Source: Pseudomonadota bacterium (GTDB lineage Bacteria > Desulfobacterota > Desulfobulbia > Desulfobulbales > Desulfocapsaceae). From it: a stretch of DNA of 64,000 nucleotides. How positions within the stretch are numbered: the first letter of the stretch is position 1; each line of letters begins with the position of its first letter. Shown here one piece after another: positions 1-10,434 of this stretch. The position numbers and the translations under genes were made by a program. The DNA lies in the NCBI GenBank assembly GCA_018820855.1, contig JAHJNL010000037.1:1-64000 (forward strand), written 5' to 3'. The notes under the pieces were generated by a model. It ran no database searches and was not told where the DNA came from. It saw only the letters and a list, made by a program, of their open reading frames with translations.

Positions 1-110
1 AAGAGTATGGCGTTGTCATTAACAACAAGGATATCGGCGAAAAGGTCTTTTCTACCCTTGCCGCACTTGCCGACTACATTCGCAGCAATTCCCCCAAGCT
101 CTCTTCTTGA
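1..110 (+). CDS. Acyl carrier protein, C-terminal end (5' truncated by window edge)
   Basis: The first 110 bases read as an open frame beginning at base 3 (EYGVVINNKD...) and ending at TGA 108-110. The peptide EYGVVINNKDIGEKVF followed by a short amphipathic segment (LAALADYIR) is the usual helix III/IV end of an acyl carrier protein. The phosphopantetheine serine lies left of the window. Its stop codon overlaps the TTG start of the ketosynthase at 107 (TTGA), so the two are translationally coupled and the biosynthetic operon clearly begins outside the window. It would be the second ACP of the cluster, with the complete one at 4107. Only about 35 residues are visible, so identification rests on tail pattern and context. 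Confidence 0.7.
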   Translation, partial: EYGVVINNKDIGEKVFSTLAALADYIRSNSPKLSS

Positions 111-2272
111 GTAAAAAAAACGTCTATATTGCAGGGGCCGGGATCCTCAGTCCGCTTGGCATTGGCCTCGATGCCACGGAAAAGGCGCTGCAGGAAAACA
201 GATCAGGAATTGCTCCTCTCACTGTTTTTTTCATCCAGCACCCTCCTCCCCTGCCCACAGCCCAGGTCCAGAATCTACCGGAGTCTACTCTCCCCCGGAC
301 CCACGCCCTGGCCATTGCTGCGGCCCTGCAGGCCATGGGCGACTGCAAGCAGGCACCGGATGCGGTAATCCTGGGGACAACCACCGGCGGAATCCTGAGC
401 ACGGAACAGCTACTCGCAGACAAGGTGCAAAATCCGGAAGCATACAGGTACCATGGCCTATCCACCGTAGCCGAGGTAGTTGCCGAACAGGTCCACTGCA
501 CCGGAAAAGCCCTCACCATCTCCACGGCCTGCTCCTCCGGGGCTGTCGCCATCAGTCTGGCCCTGAAGATGCTGCAATCAGGAAAGGCGAAGAGGGTCCT
601 GGCTGGGGGAGCAGATTCACTCTGCCACTTGACCTATTTCGGATTTCACTCCCTGCAGCTCGTTGATCCCCACGGCAGTAGACCCTTTGACAAAAACCGA
701 CAGGGTATGTCGGTGGGTGAAGGAGCAGCCCTGCTCCTCCTGACCACTGTAAAACCGGAAAAGCCACTGGGCCAGCTTCTTGGGGCAGGTCTTTCCTGCG
801 ACGCCTACCATGCAGCAGCTCCTCATCCCCAAGGAAAAGGGGCCTGCAAGGCCATGCAGACCGCTTTAGACGATGCCGGACTGGCAGTGAACGATATCGA
901 TTATATCAGCCTGCACGGCACCGGAACCCCCGATAATGACCGGGCAGAAGCCAAGGCAGTCAGAGATCTCTTTCCTCTGCCACCTGCACTGTCCTCGATT
1001 AAGGGAGCCACAGGTCACGGTCTGGCCGCAGCAGGGGCCATTGAAGCTGTGGTGGCAGCGATTTGCATTGAAAAAGGATTCCTGCCAGGCAACACCGGTT
1101 ACCGCGAAGCAGCCCCTGAGCTTCACCTTTCCCCCCTTGTCCAAGCTGCCAGCCGTTCATCATCTGCCGTCCTCTCCAACTCATTTGGTTTCGGCGGCAA
1201 CAATGGCTGTCTGGTCATTGGCCGATCCGACACCTTTGCCGCACACCAGCCTGTGACACAGAACACTCCTCTCACCATCCTCGGCAGTTCCTGCATCACA
1301 GGCGCCGGCAACAGAGAAGCGAGTATGAACAGTCTCATGCAGGCAAAACCCATGAATGGAATGCTTGGCCTGGACGATATCTCGAAAAACCTTCCCACCA
1401 AAAAGATACGCAGATTGAAACGCTTTTCCCGCCTGACGCTGTCCCTGGCTGCGGCCGCCTATGCGACTTCTGGCCTGGAGCAGCCCCCGCAGAGTGTCTT
1501 CATGGGCACTGGCTGGGGGGCGCTTTCTGAGACCTATGACTTTCTTAAAAAGCTGAGAGACACAGAAGAACAATTTCCAAGCCCCATCGATTTTGTCGGA
1601 TCGGTTCACAACAGCGCTGCCGGTCAGGTGGCAATCATGTTTGGGGCCACCGCTGCAAACATCACAGCCAGCGGCGGAGATTACTCCTTTGAACAGGCAT
1701 TGCTGGCCGCAGAGACAATGCTCGATGACACATCCGCTCCTGCCTTTGTCCTTGGTGCAGATGAAGGCCATGCCCAGTTTTCCTCACTCTTCGATCTGTC
1801 CATCCAAGCGGGAACAGCACTGTCTGACGGCGGCGGCGGTTTTTGCCTGTGCAGAAAAGCAATACCGGGAAAGGTGCAGGTACAGATACCGTTTTACCAG
1901 TCCGGCACAGCTCCAGGCGTGCTGGATGCCCTGACTGAGGCCCTGGGAGGTGCAGACAGGCTGCGAAACGAAATCGGCCTGATACTCGTTGGAATCCCGG
2001 CATCTTCATTGAAAACCGGGGAACAGCAACTGAAGGACTTTCTCAGCAGAACTGCTCTCTCGGTTCCTGTTCTGCACTACCGGGAAGTCACCGGAGAATT
2101 TGCTTCGGCGTCAGCAGTTGCTGCTGTCATGGCTGTTCATTTGCTGGAGACAGGAGAGCTCCCGCCCAGTGTTGCTCCAGCAGCAAAAGGACTGACTCCG
2201 CTTGCTGACACGAAAATCCTGGTCCTTGCTCTGGGAAAGACTATTACAGCCATGGAGTTTGGGATTCAATGA
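107..2272 (+). CDS. Beta-ketoacyl synthase fused to a catalytically dead ketosynthase-like domain
   Basis: Predicted to perform decarboxylative Claisen condensation on ACP-bound acyl chains. Residues 1-375 are a complete KS: Cys142 in TACSSG, His270 in HGTGTPDND, Lys299 and His304 in KGATGHG, and the GFGGNNG end motif. Residues about 388-600 are a second KS-like N-terminal domain (ILGSSCITGAG ... HNSAAGQVAI), in which the Cys motif is replaced by ITASGGDYSF, so it cannot condense. It may be structural or gatekeeping, like a chain-length factor. A normal KS is about 410 aa; this protein is 721 aa. The start is TTG at 107, overlapping the stop of the upstream ACP, and AAAAAAAACG directly after the start fits the MSKKNV N-terminus. 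The end overlaps the next gene by ATGA. The fold and active site are clear; substrate and chain length cannot be read. Confidence 0.88.
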   Translation: MSKKNVYIAGAGILSPLGIGLDATEKALQENRSGIAPLTVFFIQHPPPLPTAQVQNLPESTLPRTHALAIAAALQAMGDCKQAPDAVILGTTTGGILSTEQLLADKVQNPEAYRYHGLSTVAEVVAEQVHCTGKALTISTACSSGAVAISLALKMLQSGKAKRVLAGGADSLCHLTYFGFHSLQLVDPHGSRPFDKNRQGMSVGEGAALLLLTTVKPEKPLGQLLGAGLSCDAYHAAAPHPQGKGACKAMQTALDDAGLAVNDIDYISLHGTGTPDNDRAEAKAVRDLFPLPPALSSIKGATGHGLAAAGAIEAVVAAICIEKGFLPGNTGYREAAPELHLSPLVQAASRSSSAVLSNSFGFGGNNGCLVIGRSDTFAAHQPVTQNTPLTILGSSCITGAGNREASMNSLMQAKPMNGMLGLDDISKNLPTKKIRRLKRFSRLTLSLAAAAYATSGLEQPPQSVFMGTGWGALSETYDFLKKLRDTEEQFPSPIDFVGSVHNSAAGQVAIMFGATAANITASGGDYSFEQALLAAETMLDDTSAPAFVLGADEGHAQFSSLFDLSIQAGTALSDGGGGFCLCRKAIPGKVQVQIPFYQSGTAPGVLDALTEALGGADRLRNEIGLILVGIPASSLKTGEQQLKDFLSRTALSVPVLHYREVTGEFASASAVAAVMAVHLLETGELPPSVAPAAKGLTPLADTKILVLALGKTITAMEFGIQ

Positions 2273-3615
2273 AAGTTCTCCTCATCTCCCCAAACACCCT
2301 CAAGGTCCCCTACCCTGTTTACCCCATCGGCCTTGACTATGTGGCAGGCTCCCTCTCAGCTGAACACCAGGTAGAGATAGCGGACCTGAACATCCTTGAC
2401 CGCGACGCCCTTGCTACACGTCTTCATGAATTTGCCCCAGACATTATTGGCCTCTCTTTAAGAAATATTGACAACACCGAGATCGGCGACCCGCTTTTTT
2501 TCATTGAGGAATATCAGGAACTGGTCGCCTGGTTACGGACTCGGAGCCAGGCAGTCCTGGTCTGTGGCGGCGCCGGATTCACCATCCTGCCCCAGGAGAT
2601 TTTCACTGCCCTTGACCTTGACTACGGCATCGTCGGCGAAGGGGAGCGATTCGGCCTGCTTGTTGACGCCCTGGCAAACAAACACCCACTTTCAGACATC
2701 CCCGGACTGCTCAGCCATTCAGCCCCTGCTCAGGCAACTGCCCCCTGGACAGGAAAACAGCAGAGACAACTCACCCGAACCGCCTCCCATTACCAGTTTT
2801 ATCTGGACCATGGCGGGATGCTGAACCTGCAGACCAAGAGAGGGTGTTCGTTTCGCTGCATCTACTGCCCGTATCCCCACATTGAAGGGAAAAAGCATCG
2901 GCTGACCCCGCCCGAAGAGGTCGCCCGCACAGCCCTTAGCCTGCAGCAGGCCGGAGCAAAATACTTTTTCATCACCGATTCCGCCTTTAACTCAGATATA
3001 GCTCATAGCCTGGCGGTGGCGAAAGCCTTTCAAAAATGCGGCGTCTCCATACCCTGGGGCGGATTCTTTGCTCCGCTCAGGCTCCCGGCTGACTATTTTA
3101 TGACCATGTGCGCTGCCGGTCTCAAACATGTGGAGTTCGGAACCGAATCCCTTGCCGTCACCATGCTGCAGAACTACCGCAAACCTTTCCGACCTGAGGA
3201 TGTCCTGGCTGCCCATAATCAGGCGGTGGACGCCGGTCTGCATGTGGCACACTACTTTCTCATGGGTGGACCTGGCGAATCGGAAAAGAGTGTGGAGGAA
3301 ACACTGACCAACATCGATTTTCTCAAAAAAACCGTCCTCTTCTTTTTCACCGGCATCAGGATCTATCCTCACACCGCCCTTTATGATATGGCAATTGCTG
3401 AAGACAAAATTGCAGCAGACACAAATTTACTGAAACCTGTTTTCTATGAAAGTGATGCCATCAATCATCAGACGATTGAAAATATTATTCTGCAAAAAGC
3501 TGAGAAACGTATAAACTGGATTGTAGGCTCCGGAGGCGCCAAGTCTGCAGCCACGGTAACCAAAATGCATAAACGTGGTTACACCGGACCTCTTTGGGAA
3601 TATCTGATTCGATAA
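2269..3615 (+). CDS. B12-binding-domain radical SAM protein of lipid-cluster type
   Basis: 448 aa. Residues 1-150 have the Rossmann pattern of a cobalamin-binding domain (KVLLISPNT, YPIGLDYVAGSL, DIIGLSLRN, VCGGAGFTILP, DYGIVGEGE). Residues 185-400 form the radical SAM barrel with the cluster motif C193-x3-C197-x2-C200 (RGCSFRCIYC). The expected function is SAM cleavage to a 5'-deoxyadenosyl radical, or B12-assisted radical chemistry such as methylation or ring formation on an acyl substrate. The usual DxHxxG cobalamin ligand motif is not visible, so any cobalamin would bind without the protein His. The ATG overlaps the KS stop (ATGA), so it is co-translated. Proteins of this architecture are annotated in databases as lipid-biosynthesis B12/radical SAM proteins, which fits the neighbours. 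The family is clear; the reaction is unknown. Confidence 0.85.
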   Translation: MKVLLISPNTLKVPYPVYPIGLDYVAGSLSAEHQVEIADLNILDRDALATRLHEFAPDIIGLSLRNIDNTEIGDPLFFIEEYQELVAWLRTRSQAVLVCGGAGFTILPQEIFTALDLDYGIVGEGERFGLLVDALANKHPLSDIPGLLSHSAPAQATAPWTGKQQRQLTRTASHYQFYLDHGGMLNLQTKRGCSFRCIYCPYPHIEGKKHRLTPPEEVARTALSLQQAGAKYFFITDSAFNSDIAHSLAVAKAFQKCGVSIPWGGFFAPLRLPADYFMTMCAAGLKHVEFGTESLAVTMLQNYRKPFRPEDVLAAHNQAVDAGLHVAHYFLMGGPGESEKSVEETLTNIDFLKKTVLFFFTGIRIYPHTALYDMAIAEDKIAADTNLLKPVFYESDAINHQTIENIILQKAEKRINWIVGSGGAKSAATVTKMHKRGYTGPLWEYLIR

Positions 3616-3743
3616 ACAAAGCTTTTTGCAGGTCACCCATCCAGCTGTTTGGTTTTTTTTATGAACCTCTCTCAGTTTTACAGAAAGAACAGCAGATCAA
3701 TTGAAAAAAAAAATAATTCCTGGTACAAGCAAAAGATTTCTCC

Positions 3744-4097
3744 ATGTGGTACTCAATTATTACAGTACAACAAACTGATGACGATGCTATCGTTGCCCAG
3801 GTAACGACAGATCAACAGTCTCCATGGTTCTCTGGACATTTCCCGGGTGATCCTATTTTACCCGGCATTGCCCAGCTGAAAATGGTGACTGATGTCATTG
3901 GCAAAGCCCTGGAGAAAGACCTGCACCTGATCGGTTTAACGAGAATTAAATTTAAAAAACTTATCCGGCCAGGAGTAGTGCTGGATATCCATGCCATTAG
4001 CGGTAAGCAAGAGAACAACTATTCTTTCCGTATTACCAGCAATCAGGAAAACGTCTGTTCCGGCACACTGACACTGGCACCCAAACAGGAGAATTAA
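3744..4097 (+). CDS. FabZ-like 3-hydroxyacyl-ACP dehydratase (single hotdog)
   Basis: 117 aa, shorter than FabZ (about 145-150 aa). The hotdog signature SGHFPGDPILPGIAQL is complete and includes the catalytic His of the HFPG motif, followed by a central helix (MVTDVIGKAL) and strands LTRIKFKKLIRPG and YSFRITSNQ. It would dehydrate 3-hydroxyacyl-ACP to enoyl-ACP, or act as the small priming dehydratase seen in aryl-polyene and ladderane-type clusters. The second catalytic acid of FabZ is not obvious because the helix is divergent. A 128-bp gap separates it from the radical SAM gene upstream; the ACP starts 9 bases after its stop. No ketoreductase is present in the window, so its substrate must come from an enzyme encoded elsewhere. 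Confidence 0.82.
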   Translation: MWYSIITVQQTDDDAIVAQVTTDQQSPWFSGHFPGDPILPGIAQLKMVTDVIGKALEKDLHLIGLTRIKFKKLIRPGVVLDIHAISGKQENNYSFRITSNQENVCSGTLTLAPKQEN

Positions 4098-4106
4098 AAG
4101 AAATTC

Positions 4107-4373
4107 ATGAACACAGATATCAGTCAGACCATTACCCGTATTGCCGAAATCATCATTAACGAGCTCAAACTCGAAGATGTTACTCCGGAGACCTTTGATG
4201 CTGATCTGGACCTCGTTGACGAGGTCGGCGTTGATTCCATGGACCTGGCAACGATTGCTCTCGTCCTCCGCGATGAATACGGGATCAGAATTGACGAGGA
4301 TGATTACCCCAAGTTGACAACCATCCGCATTATTGCTGAATATATTGACAACAAGTTAACAAGCGACGACTAA
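4107..4373 (+). CDS. Acyl carrier protein
   Basis: 88 aa, the usual ACP size. Helix I (TRIAEIIINELKL) is followed by the 4'-phosphopantetheine site at Ser44 in GVDSMDLA, then helices II-IV (LRDEYGIRIDEDD ... TIRIIAEYID). DSM replaces the commoner DSL, a variation frequent in secondary-metabolite ACPs. The protein is strongly acidic. It lies between the dehydratase and the two radical SAM genes, and starts 3 bases before the next ORF begins, so the acyl substrate of those radical enzymes is probably carried on this protein. Confidence 0.92.
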   Translation: MNTDISQTITRIAEIIINELKLEDVTPETFDADLDLVDEVGVDSMDLATIALVLRDEYGIRIDEDDYPKLTTIRIIAEYIDNKLTSDD

Positions 4374-4376
4374 CCG

Positions 4377-5444
4377 ATGTATCAAGGCATAGAAAACAGA
4401 GAATACAAGTTTTCCGAGATCATAGCCGACCCGGCCATTGGTGCATGTTGGGAAAAAGTACGCAAATATTTTTTCCTGCGTGAATCCACCTATGACATGA
4501 GCAATCGCTGCAATATTCGTTGCGAAGGCTGTTATTATTTTAACGGCGAAAAGCAGTTTGCCAAAGAAAACCTGAATGTTGCAGACTGGAAACAGCTCAT
4601 GGAAGCTGAAAAGGAACGGGGAATCACCTTTGTTGTCCTTGCCGGTGCCGAGCCATCCCTGGTCCCGCAGTTGTGTCAAACCTGCTACGATGTCATTCCC
4701 CTGGGCTGCATTGCCTCCAATGGCCTGAATGTACTGGCCAAAGAGATTGATTACCGCATCCATATCTCTGTCTGGGGAAATGATCAGACCAGTTTTGAAA
4801 TCAGAAAGGCCAAGGATATGCTGGCCAGGCAGATGGCGAATTACCAGGATGATCCGAGAGCAGTCTGGGTCTATACCTTTACCCCGGTAAATATTGACCA
4901 GGCCCGGGAAGTAACCGAACTTCTTGCGGCCAACGGCCACCAGATCACCTTTAATATGTTTTCATCACCTGTGGGCTACAGCGGCCACCTGCGGCACACG
5001 CCAGAGACCCTGGCCCATACCCGTGCCACCATGAGTGAGCTGCTTCACGAATTTCCGCAGACAGTCCTCTTTTCCCCTTACAATATCGTGGCCCACACCC
5101 ATACACAGGGCCTGCATGATCTCTTTTCCTGCTCCTATCCCCGAATGAACCCGTCCACAGATATCGGGCTGGGCAGGTCCTTTCGCCAGTACCGCACAGA
5201 CCTGCAATGGGATCGTGCGGCTGCCTGCTGTGTCCCGGATACAGACTGTGACGACTGCCGGCATTATGCTGCCGGCAGTGCCGTGGTCACAGCCAGGATG
5301 TACCGCCACGCCACCAACCCGGTCACCTTTTCCGCCTGGCTGGATTACGTAGATACCTATCTTGCTGTCTGGGTCAGGGGCTATGAAAAGAGTGCTACTC
5401 TCTGCCAGGAAATGATTGAACCACCAAGCATAGTAGAGAGTTGA
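4377..5444 (+). CDS. Radical SAM enzyme with C-terminal Cys cluster (copy 1 of a pair)
   Basis: 355 aa. The radical SAM motif is C45-x3-C49-x2-C52 (RCNIRCEGC), followed by the GGE-like loop as AGAEPS and a TIM-barrel-like alternation of strands and helices. Near the C-terminus is a second Cys group, C284-C285-x5-C291-x2-C294, which may hold an auxiliary Fe-S cluster or a structural metal. The same arrangement appears in the neighbour at 5525, and the two share the frame (ANY...DDP / ANYAGDP; YTFTP / YTITP), so they are paralogues. It follows the ACP by 3 bases. Radical chemistry on an ACP-bound chain is inferred from position; no known substrate motif is visible. It is not a B12-type enzyme. 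Confidence 0.85.
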   Translation: MYQGIENREYKFSEIIADPAIGACWEKVRKYFFLRESTYDMSNRCNIRCEGCYYFNGEKQFAKENLNVADWKQLMEAEKERGITFVVLAGAEPSLVPQLCQTCYDVIPLGCIASNGLNVLAKEIDYRIHISVWGNDQTSFEIRKAKDMLARQMANYQDDPRAVWVYTFTPVNIDQAREVTELLAANGHQITFNMFSSPVGYSGHLRHTPETLAHTRATMSELLHEFPQTVLFSPYNIVAHTHTQGLHDLFSCSYPRMNPSTDIGLGRSFRQYRTDLQWDRAAACCVPDTDCDDCRHYAAGSAVVTARMYRHATNPVTFSAWLDYVDTYLAVWVRGYEKSATLCQEMIEPPSIVES

Positions 5445-5524
5445 GAGTTGAAAAACAGTTTCCATGCGGCCCTCATCTTTACTGAAGATATTACACTGAA
5501 AACTTTACCTGATCTTCCCTTATC

Positions 5525-6523
5525 ATGAAAACAGTCAGCTCCCTGCTCGATGACCACTGGTATGAGCGTTACAAAAAGATTTCCAAGCTCAATATCCGCA
5601 GTTCCATATATGACGTGACAGACCGCTGCAATCTGCGCTGCAAGGGATGCTTCTTCTTTTCCTCGGGTGAGCATGAACGGGCGTCTGAAGAAAATGACGT
5701 CAGTAAATGGCATACCTTTGTTGAAAAGGAGATGGAGCGCGGGGTCAATCTGGCCATCCTCATCGGCGGTGAGCCCACCTTATGCCTGGATCGAATCGAG
5801 GCCTTTTACAAACGACTGCCCACCTTTTGTGCCACCAACGGCCTCATAAAAGTGCCCAGGGACCGTTTTCCGGACATGATGGTCGGCCTGTCCTTATGGG
5901 GGGATGAAGAGGATGAAATAGCCCTGCGCGGCAAAGACACCTTTAAGATCACCAGCGCCAATTATGCAGGAGATCCACATGCCTATTACCTGTATACCAT
6001 CACCCCGAAGCAACTGGGTAAAACGGGAAAAATAATCCAAAAGATCAAAGACATCGGACTGAAGGTACACATGCAGCTGCTCTCCAACGACGAGGGCGTT
6101 GACGGTTTTTCCTGGAAACCCGAAGAACTGGTCGAGGTGCGGGCAGAAATGGATGCCATGCTTGATGCCTACCCGGAAACCGTTATTTCCTCGAAGTACT
6201 ATCACAAGGTTATCACCACCGGCCGGATGCTCGACAGAAAATTCGGCTGGATGGAATGTCCCTCAGTAACAGAGCCCATAGACAAACGAGATCCCCGCCC
6301 CAAGCGTCTCACCAACTTTATCCGCTGGGCCTCGGATCTGGAGACCATGCACCGCTGCTGCACCTCTGAAACCCGTGACTGTTCTACCTGCAAGGATGGT
6401 GCGGCCCATATGAGCTGGGTCATGGTCAACAAACGAGCCCATCTCAAAAGCACAGAGGACCTGCACAACTGGATAGAGGTCTATGAGATGTTTGCCAAGC
6501 TTTATCAGTTTATCCCCTGGTAG
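5525..6523 (+). CDS. Radical SAM enzyme with C-terminal Cys cluster (copy 2 of a pair)
   Basis: 332 aa. The cluster motif is C35-x3-C39-x2-C42 (RCNLRCKGC), followed by GGEPT and, near the C-terminus, C278-C279-x6-C286-x2-C289, matching the arrangement in the preceding paralogue. It lacks about 10 N-terminal residues relative to copy 1. An 80-bp gap precedes it. The next ketosynthase starts 10 bases after its stop. Two divergent copies suggest two successive radical steps or a heterodimer. Family assignment is firm; the reaction is not known. Confidence 0.85.
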   Translation: MKTVSSLLDDHWYERYKKISKLNIRSSIYDVTDRCNLRCKGCFFFSSGEHERASEENDVSKWHTFVEKEMERGVNLAILIGGEPTLCLDRIEAFYKRLPTFCATNGLIKVPRDRFPDMMVGLSLWGDEEDEIALRGKDTFKITSANYAGDPHAYYLYTITPKQLGKTGKIIQKIKDIGLKVHMQLLSNDEGVDGFSWKPEELVEVRAEMDAMLDAYPETVISSKYYHKVITTGRMLDRKFGWMECPSVTEPIDKRDPRPKRLTNFIRWASDLETMHRCCTSETRDCSTCKDGAAHMSWVMVNKRAHLKSTEDLHNWIEVYEMFAKLYQFIPW

Positions 6524-6533
6524 CTAGAGTTCC

Positions 6534-7784
6534 ATGGAGAGCAGCAAACCGGTTATCGTCGGCTACGACGCCATCTCTGCACTGGGCGTCGACCTGGAAG
6601 ATCAATGGCAGCGTGCCCTGCAGGGAGAAAGCGGTATCGGTCCGCTGACCCGTTTTCCGCTCAGCCAGGATTTTCCTGTCCGCATTGCCGGTCAGCTTCC
6701 TGATATCGACGATCTGCCCTATCCCTTCCTCTCTGCCAGACATCAGGCCAGCTGGAGTTCTCCGGTATTCAAGTACAGTATGCTTTCTGTTGCTCGAGCC
6801 CTGGAACGAAGCGGACTCGAAATAAGCCCTGAACTTGCTCCCAGAGTTGCTGTAACCTACAGTTCAGCCATTGGCGGTCTGGATGCAGTGCTGAACGCCG
6901 ACCGTCGCCTGCAGGCAGAGAATAAACTCCCTCCGCCATACGCAAACCCCAACTCCTGTATCAACATGGTTGGCGGTAAGATTGCCATCCAGACAGGGGC
7001 TCAAGGTCCGATTGTCTCACCCATCACTGCCTGTGCAACCGGCCTTACTTCCATGATTACCGGCGCCATGTTTCTGGCCCTGGACAGAGCCGATGTGGTC
7101 ATCTGCGGCGCAGTTGATTTTGCCTTGGTTGAACCCATTGTCGCCGGTTTTTACACCATGAACGGTGTCTACAACCCAAAGGAAGGCCAGGAAGAGGAAC
7201 CGCCGCAAGCGGCAAGCCGCCCTTTTTCCCTGAACCGCAGAGGTTTTGTCCTCTCTGAGGGGGCAGGTGCTGTGATTCTAGCCAGCCGTAAATTTGCCGA
7301 AAGCCATGGCCTCCCTTTCACCACCGAACTTGCCGGCTGGGGCATGACCTCTGATGCCCACCATTTTGTGGCTCCCTATTTCAAGACCATCAAGAAGTGT
7401 ATGCAGGATGCCATACAGGACGCAGGAATCAGTCCGGCAGATATTGCAGCAGTCAACGGGCATGCCGCCTCAACCCGTGTCGGTGACAAGGTTGAATATG
7501 AGGCCCTGCGGGCACTCTTTGGCAACACCATGCCACCTGTCTCTGCCAATAAATCCCTTATCGGTCATGCCATGGGTGCATCCAGCGTCATTGAATCCAT
7601 CTTTGCCATCCAGGGCATGCAGGAAGACGTCCTCCTCCCCACCATCAACTACCTGCCTGACCCGGAAATCGAGATAGACTGTGTGGCTGACACCAAAAGA
7701 CAACTCCCCCAGGAGTATGTCCTGAAAAACTCTTTCGGCTTTGGCGGCTGTAACAGCTGCGCTGTCTTTAAAAGAGTAAATTGA
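6534..7784 (+). CDS. Beta-ketoacyl-ACP synthase (FabF-like), complete triad
   Basis: 416 aa, FabF length. Catalytic residues are all present: Cys167 in TACATG, His310 in NGHAAST, Lys340 and His345 in NKSLIGH, with the C-terminal NSFGFGG motif. In the His motif the usual HGTGT is altered to GHAAST, a deviation worth noting because the surrounding Gly/Thr shape the malonyl pocket. It lies back to back with another complete KS (7804), with a 19-bp gap. The adjacent pair could form a heterodimer or act sequentially. Role: chain elongation in the same ACP-dependent pathway. Confidence 0.9.
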   Translation: MESSKPVIVGYDAISALGVDLEDQWQRALQGESGIGPLTRFPLSQDFPVRIAGQLPDIDDLPYPFLSARHQASWSSPVFKYSMLSVARALERSGLEISPELAPRVAVTYSSAIGGLDAVLNADRRLQAENKLPPPYANPNSCINMVGGKIAIQTGAQGPIVSPITACATGLTSMITGAMFLALDRADVVICGAVDFALVEPIVAGFYTMNGVYNPKEGQEEEPPQAASRPFSLNRRGFVLSEGAGAVILASRKFAESHGLPFTTELAGWGMTSDAHHFVAPYFKTIKKCMQDAIQDAGISPADIAAVNGHAASTRVGDKVEYEALRALFGNTMPPVSANKSLIGHAMGASSVIESIFAIQGMQEDVLLPTINYLPDPEIEIDCVADTKRQLPQEYVLKNSFGFGGCNSCAVFKRVN

Positions 7785-7803
7785 AAGTCACGCCGGTACG
7801 CTT

Positions 7804-9069
7804 ATGAAAGCACCACTCAACAGAAGAGTCTTTGTCGTCGGCTACAGCGCTGCAACGCCGCTCGGCAACACCTTTGCCAAAACCTGGCAGGCCGCAGTTG
7901 CAGGAAAAGCCGGGTTTCGCAGAGTAAGCAGATGCGAGACAGACAGCCGCAGTAATGTGGTGGGAGAAATACCGGACTGGGACCCGACACAGTTTTCCTA
8001 TGTTACCCGGAAAGAGGCCTCTATCTGGGATGCAGCCTATGTCTTTCTGACCATGGAGGCCTGTAAAGCGGCACTTGCCCATGCAGGGCTGGAAATGGAC
8101 AGGCAGACCGGGCCCAGAACCGCCTGTCTGATCGGTTCGGCCTTAAACGGTACCGACTCCTACCGTATTGCCATGGACAACTATGTGAACCGGGGGCCGT
8201 TTAAGGTCAGTCCCTATCTCCTGCCCAATGTCTGCGCCAACCTCCCTGCCGGCAAAGCCGGAATGCTGCTGGGTTTTACCGGGCCGATTTTTTCTCCCCA
8301 GGGCGCCTGTGCCTCGGCCAACCATGCCATTGGTATCGGCTCCAGAATGATCCGTGACGGCGACTGTGATTTTGTCCTGGCAGGAGGCGTGGAAACCTGC
8401 CTGATCCCGGAGATTATCCAGGGATTTTCCAATATGCTGGCGACAATCAAGGTAGGCCCGAAAGATCGTGCCCACAACGACCCCACCCAGGCCTCACGAC
8501 CGTTCAGCCTCGACCGCAGAGGTTTTGTCCTTTCCGAAGGAGCAGGCGTACTGGTGCTTGCAGCAGAAGACAAAGTCAAAGCGCTGGGCCTGCAAGCAAA
8601 AGCTGAGATTGCCGGCATCGGATGGACCTCTGACGCCAAGCACTTCACCCGGCCGAACACGGAAACCATAGTCCGGGCAATCCATGACGCCATTGCTGAT
8701 GCAGAGATAAGCCCGCAGGACATTGGCAGCATAAATGCCCACGGGACCTCAACCCCCACAGGCGATTCCACTGAAGTGGAATGTCTGCGGGAAGTCTTCG
8801 GCAAAGGGATCGGACACATTCCCATCACTGCAAATAAGTCGCAGGTGGGACACAGCCTCGGCGCTTCAGCGGCCATTGAAGCAGCCCTGTCCATTGAAGC
8901 CATGTCCGGATCCCTAGTCCTGCCCACAGTGAATCACATCCCGGATCCGGCCTTTGATGACCTCGACGTTGTGCCCAACCAGGCCCGCAAGCATGTGTAC
9001 GAACATGTTCTTTCCAACTCATTCGGCTTTGGCGGCACCAACTGCTGTATTGTCTTCAAGGGAATTTAA
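7804..9069 (+). CDS. Beta-ketoacyl-ACP synthase (FabF-like), second of a tandem pair
   Basis: 421 aa. The triad is Cys169 (GACASAN), His313 (NAHGTSTPTGD), and Lys345/His350 (NKSQVGH), with the NSFGFGG end motif. It is closer to standard FabF than the KS at 6534 because HGTST is retained. Both have the insertion PTQASRPFS / PPQAASRPFS before RRGFVLSEGAG, so they are related. Including the fusion at 107, the operon encodes three active KS domains and one dead one, more than normal fatty-acid synthesis needs. Confidence 0.92.
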   Translation: MKAPLNRRVFVVGYSAATPLGNTFAKTWQAAVAGKAGFRRVSRCETDSRSNVVGEIPDWDPTQFSYVTRKEASIWDAAYVFLTMEACKAALAHAGLEMDRQTGPRTACLIGSALNGTDSYRIAMDNYVNRGPFKVSPYLLPNVCANLPAGKAGMLLGFTGPIFSPQGACASANHAIGIGSRMIRDGDCDFVLAGGVETCLIPEIIQGFSNMLATIKVGPKDRAHNDPTQASRPFSLDRRGFVLSEGAGVLVLAAEDKVKALGLQAKAEIAGIGWTSDAKHFTRPNTETIVRAIHDAIADAEISPQDIGSINAHGTSTPTGDSTEVECLREVFGKGIGHIPITANKSQVGHSLGASAAIEAALSIEAMSGSLVLPTVNHIPDPAFDDLDVVPNQARKHVYEHVLSNSFGFGGTNCCIVFKGI

Positions 9070-9097
9070 CAGACTTTCTATACAAGAGAAAAACACG

Positions 9098-9580
9098 ATG
9101 CGACCCAAACCCTTTATCCCTGAATTAGTACCGGACCATCCTTCCCATGTCCGGGATGCCAACAGCGGCAAAATCTGGCATCGCTGCGAGATGCGCACCC
9201 TCTATGTTGATACGGATCGTTCCCAGGTTGTCTATCACGCCAATTACCTAAGATACTTTGAATTCGGCAGAGCATCACTCATGCGGGAGGCCAACTATCC
9301 TTACAAAATCATAGAAGAAAGCGGCTACATCTATCCCATCATCAAAACAGAACTCAACTATTATACCCCCCTCTACTATGATGACCTGATGATCATCCAC
9401 ACCCGGCCTGCCCAACTGGAGCTTGTCAAACTGCAGTTTGATTACTGCATCACCAGGGCAGAGGACGGAGAAATAATCTGTACCGGATACACCAAGCACT
9501 GTGCGGTAAACAGAGACGGCGTCCCTGTGGAGATCGATGAGAAAACGATCAAGCTCTGGGATCAATTTCCCCGCCAATAA
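9098..9580 (+). CDS. YbgC/4-hydroxybenzoyl-CoA-type hotdog thioesterase
   Basis: 160 aa with the chosen ATG at 9098. The frame is open further upstream, but only through the preceding KS gene. The signature YVDTDRSQVVYHANYLRYFE is the YbgC/4HBT active-site region, with Asp40 as the likely catalytic acid, followed by strands ICTGYTKHCAVN typical of the family. The expected reaction is hydrolysis of acyl-ACP or acyl-CoA, releasing the product of the cluster. The stop TAA shares its last base with the next ATG (TAATG), so the dehydratase behind it is translationally coupled. Chain release fits its place near the operon end. Confidence 0.85.
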   Translation: MRPKPFIPELVPDHPSHVRDANSGKIWHRCEMRTLYVDTDRSQVVYHANYLRYFEFGRASLMREANYPYKIIEESGYIYPIIKTELNYYTPLYYDDLMIIHTRPAQLELVKLQFDYCITRAEDGEIICTGYTKHCAVNRDGVPVEIDEKTIKLWDQFPRQ

Positions 9581-10434
9581 TGTCCAGCCGCAAGCCTGTT
9601 GAAATCTTAGTCAAGCCCTGGTTCAAAGATCACTGTTTTAACGGAAAAGTAATTCTTCCGGCTGTGGAAATAATGGAGATTCTGGCTTCCGCTGTTCAAG
9701 CAATACGGCCTGACATCCTGCCCTGGACGATGTGCGACGCCACCTTCTCGAAATTTCTTGAGATTCCTGCAGGAGCAACAGAGTTGTCAGCCCTGATAGA
9801 ATATGACGGAGGGGACAAGGGCGAGATCTGTGCCAGACTAGTCAGCCAGATACACTTTAAAAAGATCAGCAGAATCAAAGAACATGCACAGATAACATTT
9901 CTGACTCATCTGCCGGAAACGGCGGATCTGGCAGCCACGGACCTGTCATTTCCCACACAAGCAAGCAATTCTGTAACAGCAGAGCAAATTTATATGGACC
10001 TGGTCCCCTTTGGCCCGGTCTACCACACTCTGACTGGCCACCTCCATCTTTCCGAGAGAGGCGCGTGGGGTACACTGCTGGCACCACTCTTGACCGGAGA
10101 CAAACAGACAGAAAAAACACTTGGTTCTCCCTTCCCCCTTGACGGAGCCATGCATGCTGCCTGTGTCTTTGGTCAGTGTGTTACCGATTTTGTTCCATTT
10201 CCAGTCGGTTTCAGGGAACGTCTTATCCTCAATCCGACAAGGGCAGGTGAGCAATATAAGACCAGTGTCATTCCTGTCTCACAGAGCAGCAACGAACTCG
10301 TTTTTGACCTGTTTATTGTCGATACAGCGGGAACACTCTGTGAAACGCTAACAGGATTACGGATGCGGGATGTCAGCGCAGGTCTCATTACGCCCCCGGC
10401 TTGGATAAGAAATAATGGCTTTGCCAATAGTTGA
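9580..10434 (+). CDS. PKS-type (double-hotdog) dehydratase
   Basis: 284 aa, the size of a stand-alone polyketide dehydratase domain. The N-terminal hotdog has the motif DHCFNGKVILPAVE with catalytic His18 (HxxxGxxxxP). The C-terminal hotdog has DGAMHAACVFGQ with Asp188 and His192, the expected Dx3(H/Q) acid. It would dehydrate beta-hydroxyacyl intermediates and is the second dehydratase of the operon. Overlap by one base with the thioesterase gene shows co-translation. It is the last recognisable gene of the operon; no clear terminator follows. Confidence 0.8.
   Translation: MSSRKPVEILVKPWFKDHCFNGKVILPAVEIMEILASAVQAIRPDILPWTMCDATFSKFLEIPAGATELSALIEYDGGDKGEICARLVSQIHFKKISRIKEHAQITFLTHLPETADLAATDLSFPTQASNSVTAEQIYMDLVPFGPVYHTLTGHLHLSERGAWGTLLAPLLTGDKQTEKTLGSPFPLDGAMHAACVFGQCVTDFVPFPVGFRERLILNPTRAGEQYKTSVIPVSQSSNELVFDLFIVDTAGTLCETLTGLRMRDVSAGLITPPAWIRNNGFANS

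Follow-up and report, generated by a model that had tools for sequence, protein, structure and literature searches.

The gene cluster at the beginning of contig C13 (JAHJNL010000037.1) of a sulfate-reducer-type bacterium combines acyl carrier proteins (ACPs), ketosynthases (KSs) and radical S-adenosylmethionine (SAM) enzymes, and raises the question of whether it belongs to a ladderane pathway or to another kind of acyl-chain synthase. A sequence-only reading of the window, i.e., the first 64 kb of C13 beginning at the contig end, had described positions 1 to 10,434 as ladderane-like. Genome mining lists "ladderane" clusters in many non-anammox (anammox, anaerobic ammonium oxidation) phyla including Desulfobacterota, without a known product (PMC9902471). 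According to the sequence comparisons described here, the cluster probably represents a radical-SAM-equipped relative of the aryl polyene (APE) and flexirubin systems, which would build an unsaturated acyl chain and attach it to an envelope lipid. We estimate the probability of this reading at roughly two in three. To the proposed anammox ladderane genes the cluster appears to be only a distant cousin.

Probable relationship to aryl polyene and flexirubin systems

The cluster spans approximately 20 kb and comprises the window operon and a divergent operon on contig C69 (10,754 bp), which overlaps window positions 1-141 exactly (141 bp). As the same arrangement is also present in unbroken contigs of relatives (e.g., L063, L067, L068, and L071), the join of the two contigs can be considered sound.

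The relationship to APE and flexirubin systems is suggested by the match to a KS and its chain-length factor (CLF), by the complementary halves of a dehydratase, and by the best family matches of FabG, LolA, KS1, and ACP1. KS1 matches PDB chain 6qsp_A (ApeO) and the dead KS domain of the same protein matches 6qsp_B (ApeC); these two chains make up the ApeO:ApeC crystal. ApeC has been described as a half-size CLF (PMC8358021); here, KS and CLF are fused in one chain. Direct reading of the motifs showed that the catalytic Cys-His-His motifs of KS1 are kept (TACSSG, HGTGTP, and GHGLA) and that the C-terminal domain retains none of the three catalytic residues. The motifs of the two further ketosynthases, whose nearest likeness is FabF, are intact as well (TACATG, NGHAAST, and GHAMG in KS2; GACASA, NAHGTST, and GHSLG in KS3).

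ApeI and ApeP form a heterodimer that shares one active site (PMC8041823), and two small dehydratases of the cluster match the two chains of this complex (6qsr_A and 6qsr_B). The GHFP His of the ApeI-like half is invariant in all 20 aligned sequences. The ApeP/FabZ-like half encoded on C69, for which 6qsr_B (ApeP) was the only match in the PDB, retains the FabZ Glu across relatives and lacks the HFPG motif. Since, among relatives, the His is found only in the ApeI-like and the Glu only in the ApeP-like half, the two proteins are predicted to form a heterodimer of the ApeI/ApeP type and to divide one active site between them.

In line with this, the best family matches of KS1 and ACP1 were PRK09185 (335 bits) and PRK09184 (69.5 bits, cut-off 70), respectively, and flexirubin FlxB (282 bits, cut-off 340) was the best match of FabG, the ketoreductase on C69. 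LolA scored best against flexirubin LolA2. The E. coli APE gene list comprises 18 genes (PMC8253772), of which 11 to 13 have counterparts in the cluster (C, E, F, H, I, J, K, L, O, P, and Q, probably also N and R); none was found there for apeA, B, D, G, and M. With the APE clusters of E. coli, Xenorhabdus, and Acinetobacter, the cluster shares a KS with an ApeC-like CLF, the ApeI:ApeP-type dehydratase, a ketoreductase, two ACPs, a thioesterase, a family 2 glycosyltransferase (GT2), an LpxL-type acyltransferase, LolA, an AMP-ligase, and the lack of an enoyl reductase, as family scans of the cluster proteins gave no match to any enoyl-reductase-specific family. It differs from them in the fusion of KS and CLF, two further active KSs, a polyketide synthase (PKS)-type dehydratase, four radical SAM enzymes, and a FakA-FakB fusion, and in containing neither an exporter nor a methyltransferase. 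Flexirubin clusters of Bacteroidota are linked to it by the best NCBIfam matches of FabG and LolA, with scores below the equivalog cut-offs, however, and they differ by their FlxY-type ligase, which is not found here, and by the radical SAM pair, which is. An ordinary type II fatty acid synthase was also considered and rejected, as the split dehydratase, the CLF and the radical SAM genes do not fit such a system.

Several observations speak against an APE/flexirubin-like system. An APE-type RND exporter, a head-group methyltransferase, apeD, apeA, and apeG are missing from the cluster, several of the flexirubin/APE model scores lie under the curated cut-offs, and the match of the putative lipoprotein to DUF3261 is below cut-off too. 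The AMP-ligase has no specific match to an aryl-acid ligase; none of its matches (long-chain acyl-CoA ligase and 4-coumarate-CoA ligase) comes anywhere near the cut-off. Moreover, the two extra KSs, the PKS-type dehydratase, and the four radical SAM enzymes exceed the APE gene set, so that something other than a simple aryl polyene may be formed. As regards export, no RND or MMPL gene is present in the cluster, and MMPL-family genes do occur elsewhere in the genome. In one relative (G275, L075:5411-8518), the cluster encodes an MMPL transporter that also includes a fused methyltransferase domain and is perhaps the exporter lacking from the window's cluster.

Organization and conservation of the locus

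Open reading frames and Pfam matches bear out the gene content proposed for positions 1 to 10,434 (Table 1), including the thioesterase, both dehydratases, and four KS domains of which one is dead, except that ACP1 is present in the window only as a 3′ fragment. The expectation of further pathway genes to the left proved correct as well, with the divergent operon supplying ketoreductase, ligase, and acyltransferase. Coupling by overlapping start and stop codons had been suggested for the operon; the overlaps TTGA at 107, ATGA at 2269, and TAATG at ~9578 are real, but they join only three gene pairs, and gaps of ~130 bp (3616-3743) and ~80 bp (5445-5524) separate other genes.

Table 1. Genes of the cluster in the window and on contig C69.
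Feature	Position	Strand	Evidence or remarks
ACP1, 3′ end	1..110	+	exact 141-bp overlap with C69; PP-binding domain
ACP1, complete	C69 / L004:32-298	minus	PP-binding domain
KS1-CLF fusion	107..2272	+	active APE-type KS (aa 1-380); dead ApeC-like CLF domain (aa 388-721)
B12-binding radical SAM 1, outlying TIGR04072 member	2269..3615	+	NCBIfam TIGR04072 "rSAM_ladder_B12", 386 bits (cut-off 360)
ApeI-like dehydratase half	3744..4097	+	Pfam ApeI-like; PDB 6qsr_A; GHFP His kept, no FabZ Glu
ACP2, complete	4107..4373	+	PP-binding; 20/20 related loci, median identity 80%
rSAM_A, Cys-rich radical SAM	4377..5444	+	conserved C-terminal C..CC..CxxC; in all loci with rSAM_B
rSAM_B, Cys-rich radical SAM	5525..6523	+	most conserved cluster protein
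KS2, active ketosynthase	6534..7784	+	Pfam and motifs; 19/20 related loci
KS3, active ketosynthase	7804..9069	+	Pfam and motifs; 19/20 related loci
4HBT-type thioesterase, ApeK-like role	9098..9580	+	Pfam 4HBT_2; NCBIfam YbgC/FadM above cut-off
PKS-type dehydratase, last gene of the operon	9580..10434	+	Pfam PS-DH and PKS_DH_N
Divergent operon, biosynthesis	C69		ApeP/FabZ-like dehydratase (third in the cluster), FabG, second B12-radical-SAM, AMP-ligase
Divergent operon, attachment/envelope	C69		LolA, possible DUF3261-like lipoprotein, FakA-FakB-like fusion, GT2 glycosyltransferase, LpxL-like acyltransferase

The same gene order was found in most of 20 related loci across the phylum, which rules out a chance mixture of genes. 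A near-invariant core of these loci consists of the ApeI-like dehydratase, ACP2, rSAM_A, rSAM_B, KS2, KS3, and the thioesterase. The part containing ACP1, KS1-CLF, and B12-radical-SAM 1 as well as the divergent operon adjoin this core in most of the loci and are located apart from it or not nearby in some, which suggests that the core may be able to work alone. Median identities across the 20 loci amount to 53% for KS1-CLF and 57% for B12-radical-SAM 1.

The FakA-FakB fusion of the divergent operon (L004:6828-8549) unites fatty acid kinase components of the FakA-like (DAK2) and FakB-like (DegV) types in one protein, and approximately half of the related loci contain it. On C69, a pilin-like frame follows the genes of this operon. 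The operon is headed by a gene for a D-2-hydroxyacid dehydrogenase, which was rejected as a member of the system because none of the 20 related loci showed a homolog.

Relation to ladderane-type clusters

TIGR04072 is the only ladderane-named family matched by the cluster. Among 146 genomes of the same order and 198 of the phylum, scores against this model fall into two groups, ~570-630 and ~350-415 bits, with the window protein belonging to the lower one. Because the curated cut-off of 360 bits runs through this lower group, some proteins from other types of cluster also receive the name "ladderane". In a quick tree of 99 B12-radical-SAMs, supported by Shimodaira-Hasegawa-like approximate likelihood-ratio test (SH-aLRT) values only, B12-radical-SAM 1 of the window clustered with the copies from all other loci containing the rSAM_A/rSAM_B pair (SH-aLRT 99 for the window type and one Desulfosarcina). 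The copy of the anammox bacterium Candidatus Jettenia ecosi, which has a long branch, joined Geobacteraceae-type sequences, and the ladderane-type copies of Desulfobulbales formed a third group. TIGR04072-like enzymes are also not specific for ladderane clusters, as a Bacteroidota clade of them occurs in flexirubin/APE-like KS-ACP clusters (L141-L181, e.g., Alistipes L176 and Flammeovirga L144).

The Jettenia locus (L169), found by a scan of named genomes, contains KS genes, a FlxY/PaaK-type ligase, a SPASM radical SAM, a TIGR04072 protein, an ACP, a phytoene-desaturase-like protein, and a GT2. Compared with a ladderane-type locus of Desulfobulbales (L083), identities are 38% for the ligase, 53% for the SPASM radical SAM, and 26% for the phytoene-desaturase-like protein. 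The window's cluster resembles such ladderane-type clusters (Jettenia and the canonical TIGR04072 loci of Desulfobulbales) in B12-radical-SAM 1 (35%), GT2, APE-type KS, and ACP, and those of Desulfobulbales also in the second B12-radical-SAM (58-60%) and LpxL. In contrast, the phytoene-desaturase-like protein, the FlxY/PaaK (phenylacetyl-CoA-ligase-like) ligase, and the SPASM radical SAM have no counterpart in the window operon or on C69, and the Desulfobulbales loci additionally carry an MMPL exporter and AGPAT. Ladderane-type clusters, in turn, do not contain the rSAM_A/rSAM_B-KS2-KS3 core, save for two genomes with both types. A window-type core and a high-scoring TIGR04072 locus lie on one contig in G067 (C6; L065 and L086, ~7 kb apart) and in G061 (C3; L081 and L087, ~28 kb apart).

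The ladderane-like label holds only in part and weakly: the cluster is tied to ladderane clusters only by B12-radical-SAM 1, which scores just above the family cut-off but falls in a separate clade, and the other shared ladderane-type genes are missing. That the cluster makes cyclobutane lipids or a direct precursor of them is very improbable: the match to TIGR04072 and the presence of KS, ACP, and GT2 genes beside the family member of Jettenia would agree with it, but B12-radical-SAM 1 is equally distant (~35% identity) from the anammox and the ladderane-type copies, the three genes common to both kinds of loci are not found here, and Jettenia has no full-length relative of rSAM_B, its locus showing only the SPASM radical SAM. 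Furthermore, ladderanes were not found even in Desulfotalea psychrophila, although its cluster was reported to be syntenic with that of anammox bacteria, a synteny described via phytoene-dehydrogenase-like and phenylacetyl-CoA-ligase genes (Rattray et al., PMC2649909). Judged from this published description, the Desulfotalea cluster fits the ladderane type rather than the window type.

Long-chain polyunsaturated hydrocarbons (C31:8 and C31:9) were found in D. psychrophila by Rattray et al. (PMC2649909), and a pathway that makes polyunsaturated fatty acids anaerobically has been proposed to supply them. The lack of an enoyl reductase would follow the same unsaturated-chain logic, yet, judged from the genes of the cluster, we regard such a pathway as quite unlikely here, since these include genes for a head group and for envelope transport and not hydrocarbon-forming ones, and since the cluster discussed by these authors contains phytoene-desaturase-like and phenylacetyl-CoA-ligase genes and so corresponds to the other type. 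The proposal that the operon serves the synthesis of an unusual acyl chain is supported by our analysis, and radical modification of this chain is probable.

A conserved pair of radical SAM enzymes

The tandem radical SAM pair rSAM_A/rSAM_B is a novel feature of the cluster. The two proteins, which share ~30% identity, contain the CxxxCxxC motif at aa 45/49/52 (rSAM_A) and 35/39/42 (rSAM_B). Five C-terminal cysteines are invariant in each of them (252/284/285/291/294 in 47 homologs of rSAM_A; 245/278/279/286/289 in 46 homologs of rSAM_B) and could bind one auxiliary cluster per protein. In rSAM_B, 147 of 332 residues are invariant among the 46 homologs; identities reach 82-97% within the order and 71-79% elsewhere in the phylum, with a median of 84% in the 20 loci. 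Neither protein reached the gathering score of Pfam Radical_SAM or matched an NCBIfam equivalog over its cut-off, and a PDB sequence search with rSAM_B yielded only very weak radical SAM matches.

By a tally of listed places, the pair is present in 46 of the 146 genomes of the same order, always with both members (in one case truncated where the contig ends), and in ~15 genomes elsewhere in the phylum. B12-radical-SAM 1 of the window type occurs in 38 of these 46 genomes (one contig-cut copy counted) versus ~4 of the other 100, corresponding to a Fisher p of ~1e-22 when related genomes are treated as independent. Among 62 genomes reached via named TIGR04072-type loci, none contained rSAM_B; only short fragments (~31-38%) were obtained in two.

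Distant relatives of rSAM_B are encoded on plasmids of Burkholderia, Alteromonas, and Tistrella (L193:9929-11095, L194:9956-11089, and L195:9962-11227). They show full-length similarity to rSAM_B (31-33%) and the C-terminal CC..CxxC, but occur as single copies, and neither an rSAM_A partner nor a KS-rSAM core was seen alongside. The Burkholderia and Alteromonas copies are accompanied by genes for a PaaA-like diiron protein and a hotdog-fold thioesterase or MaoC dehydratase. The presence of these thioesterase/dehydratase genes may point to acyl-thioester substrates.

It is possible, if somewhat doubtful, that the pair acts on a polyene or acyl chain bound to its carrier and carries out a new radical reaction there, which might close a ring, couple carbon atoms (C-C), or desaturate the chain anaerobically. 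Anaerobes would then have outer-membrane lipids with radical-derived modifications that belong to a class not described so far.

B12-radical-SAMs are often methylases. This, the FabF-like KS2 and KS3, and the FakA-FakB fusion and LpxL-like acyltransferase, which fit incorporation into membrane lipids, would also agree with a specialized fatty-acid operon for a structural membrane lipid with a branched, methylated, or cyclized chain instead of a polyene. We nevertheless consider this unlikely: the KS-CLF fusion and the split ApeI:ApeP-like dehydratase are hallmarks of polyene synthases, an enoyl reductase is missing from the cluster, and the patchy presence in 46 of 146 genomes is ill-suited to an essential membrane lipid.

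Proposed pathway

For an APE/flexirubin-like system, the operon in the window and its divergent counterpart on C69 would together encode one type II synthase. The AMP-ligase may prime an ACP, and KS1-CLF, KS2, and KS3 would lengthen the chain with malonyl units. FabG would then reduce the intermediates, and the split ApeI:ApeP-like and PKS-type dehydratases would take out water. As no enoyl reductase is present in the cluster, the chain would be kept unsaturated. Subsequently, the two B12-radical-SAMs and rSAM_A/rSAM_B may modify the ACP- or CoA-bound chain. After its release by the thioesterase, the chain might be re-activated by the FakA-FakB fusion or the ligase and joined to a head group by the GT2 and the LpxL-like acyltransferase, before LolA and the possible DUF3261-like lipoprotein would bring the product to the outer membrane. 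We infer a polyene product, this order of steps, and an outer-membrane destination.

Implications

The locus separates two cluster types that are mixed by the single TIGR04072 cut-off, and polyene-type chemistry is indicated for one of them. The radical SAM pair, whose members always occur together, are very conserved, and lie outside assigned families, offers a clean and testable target. If the proposed relationship is true, anaerobes would make their own APE/flexirubin-like membrane lipids, tailored by radical enzymes.

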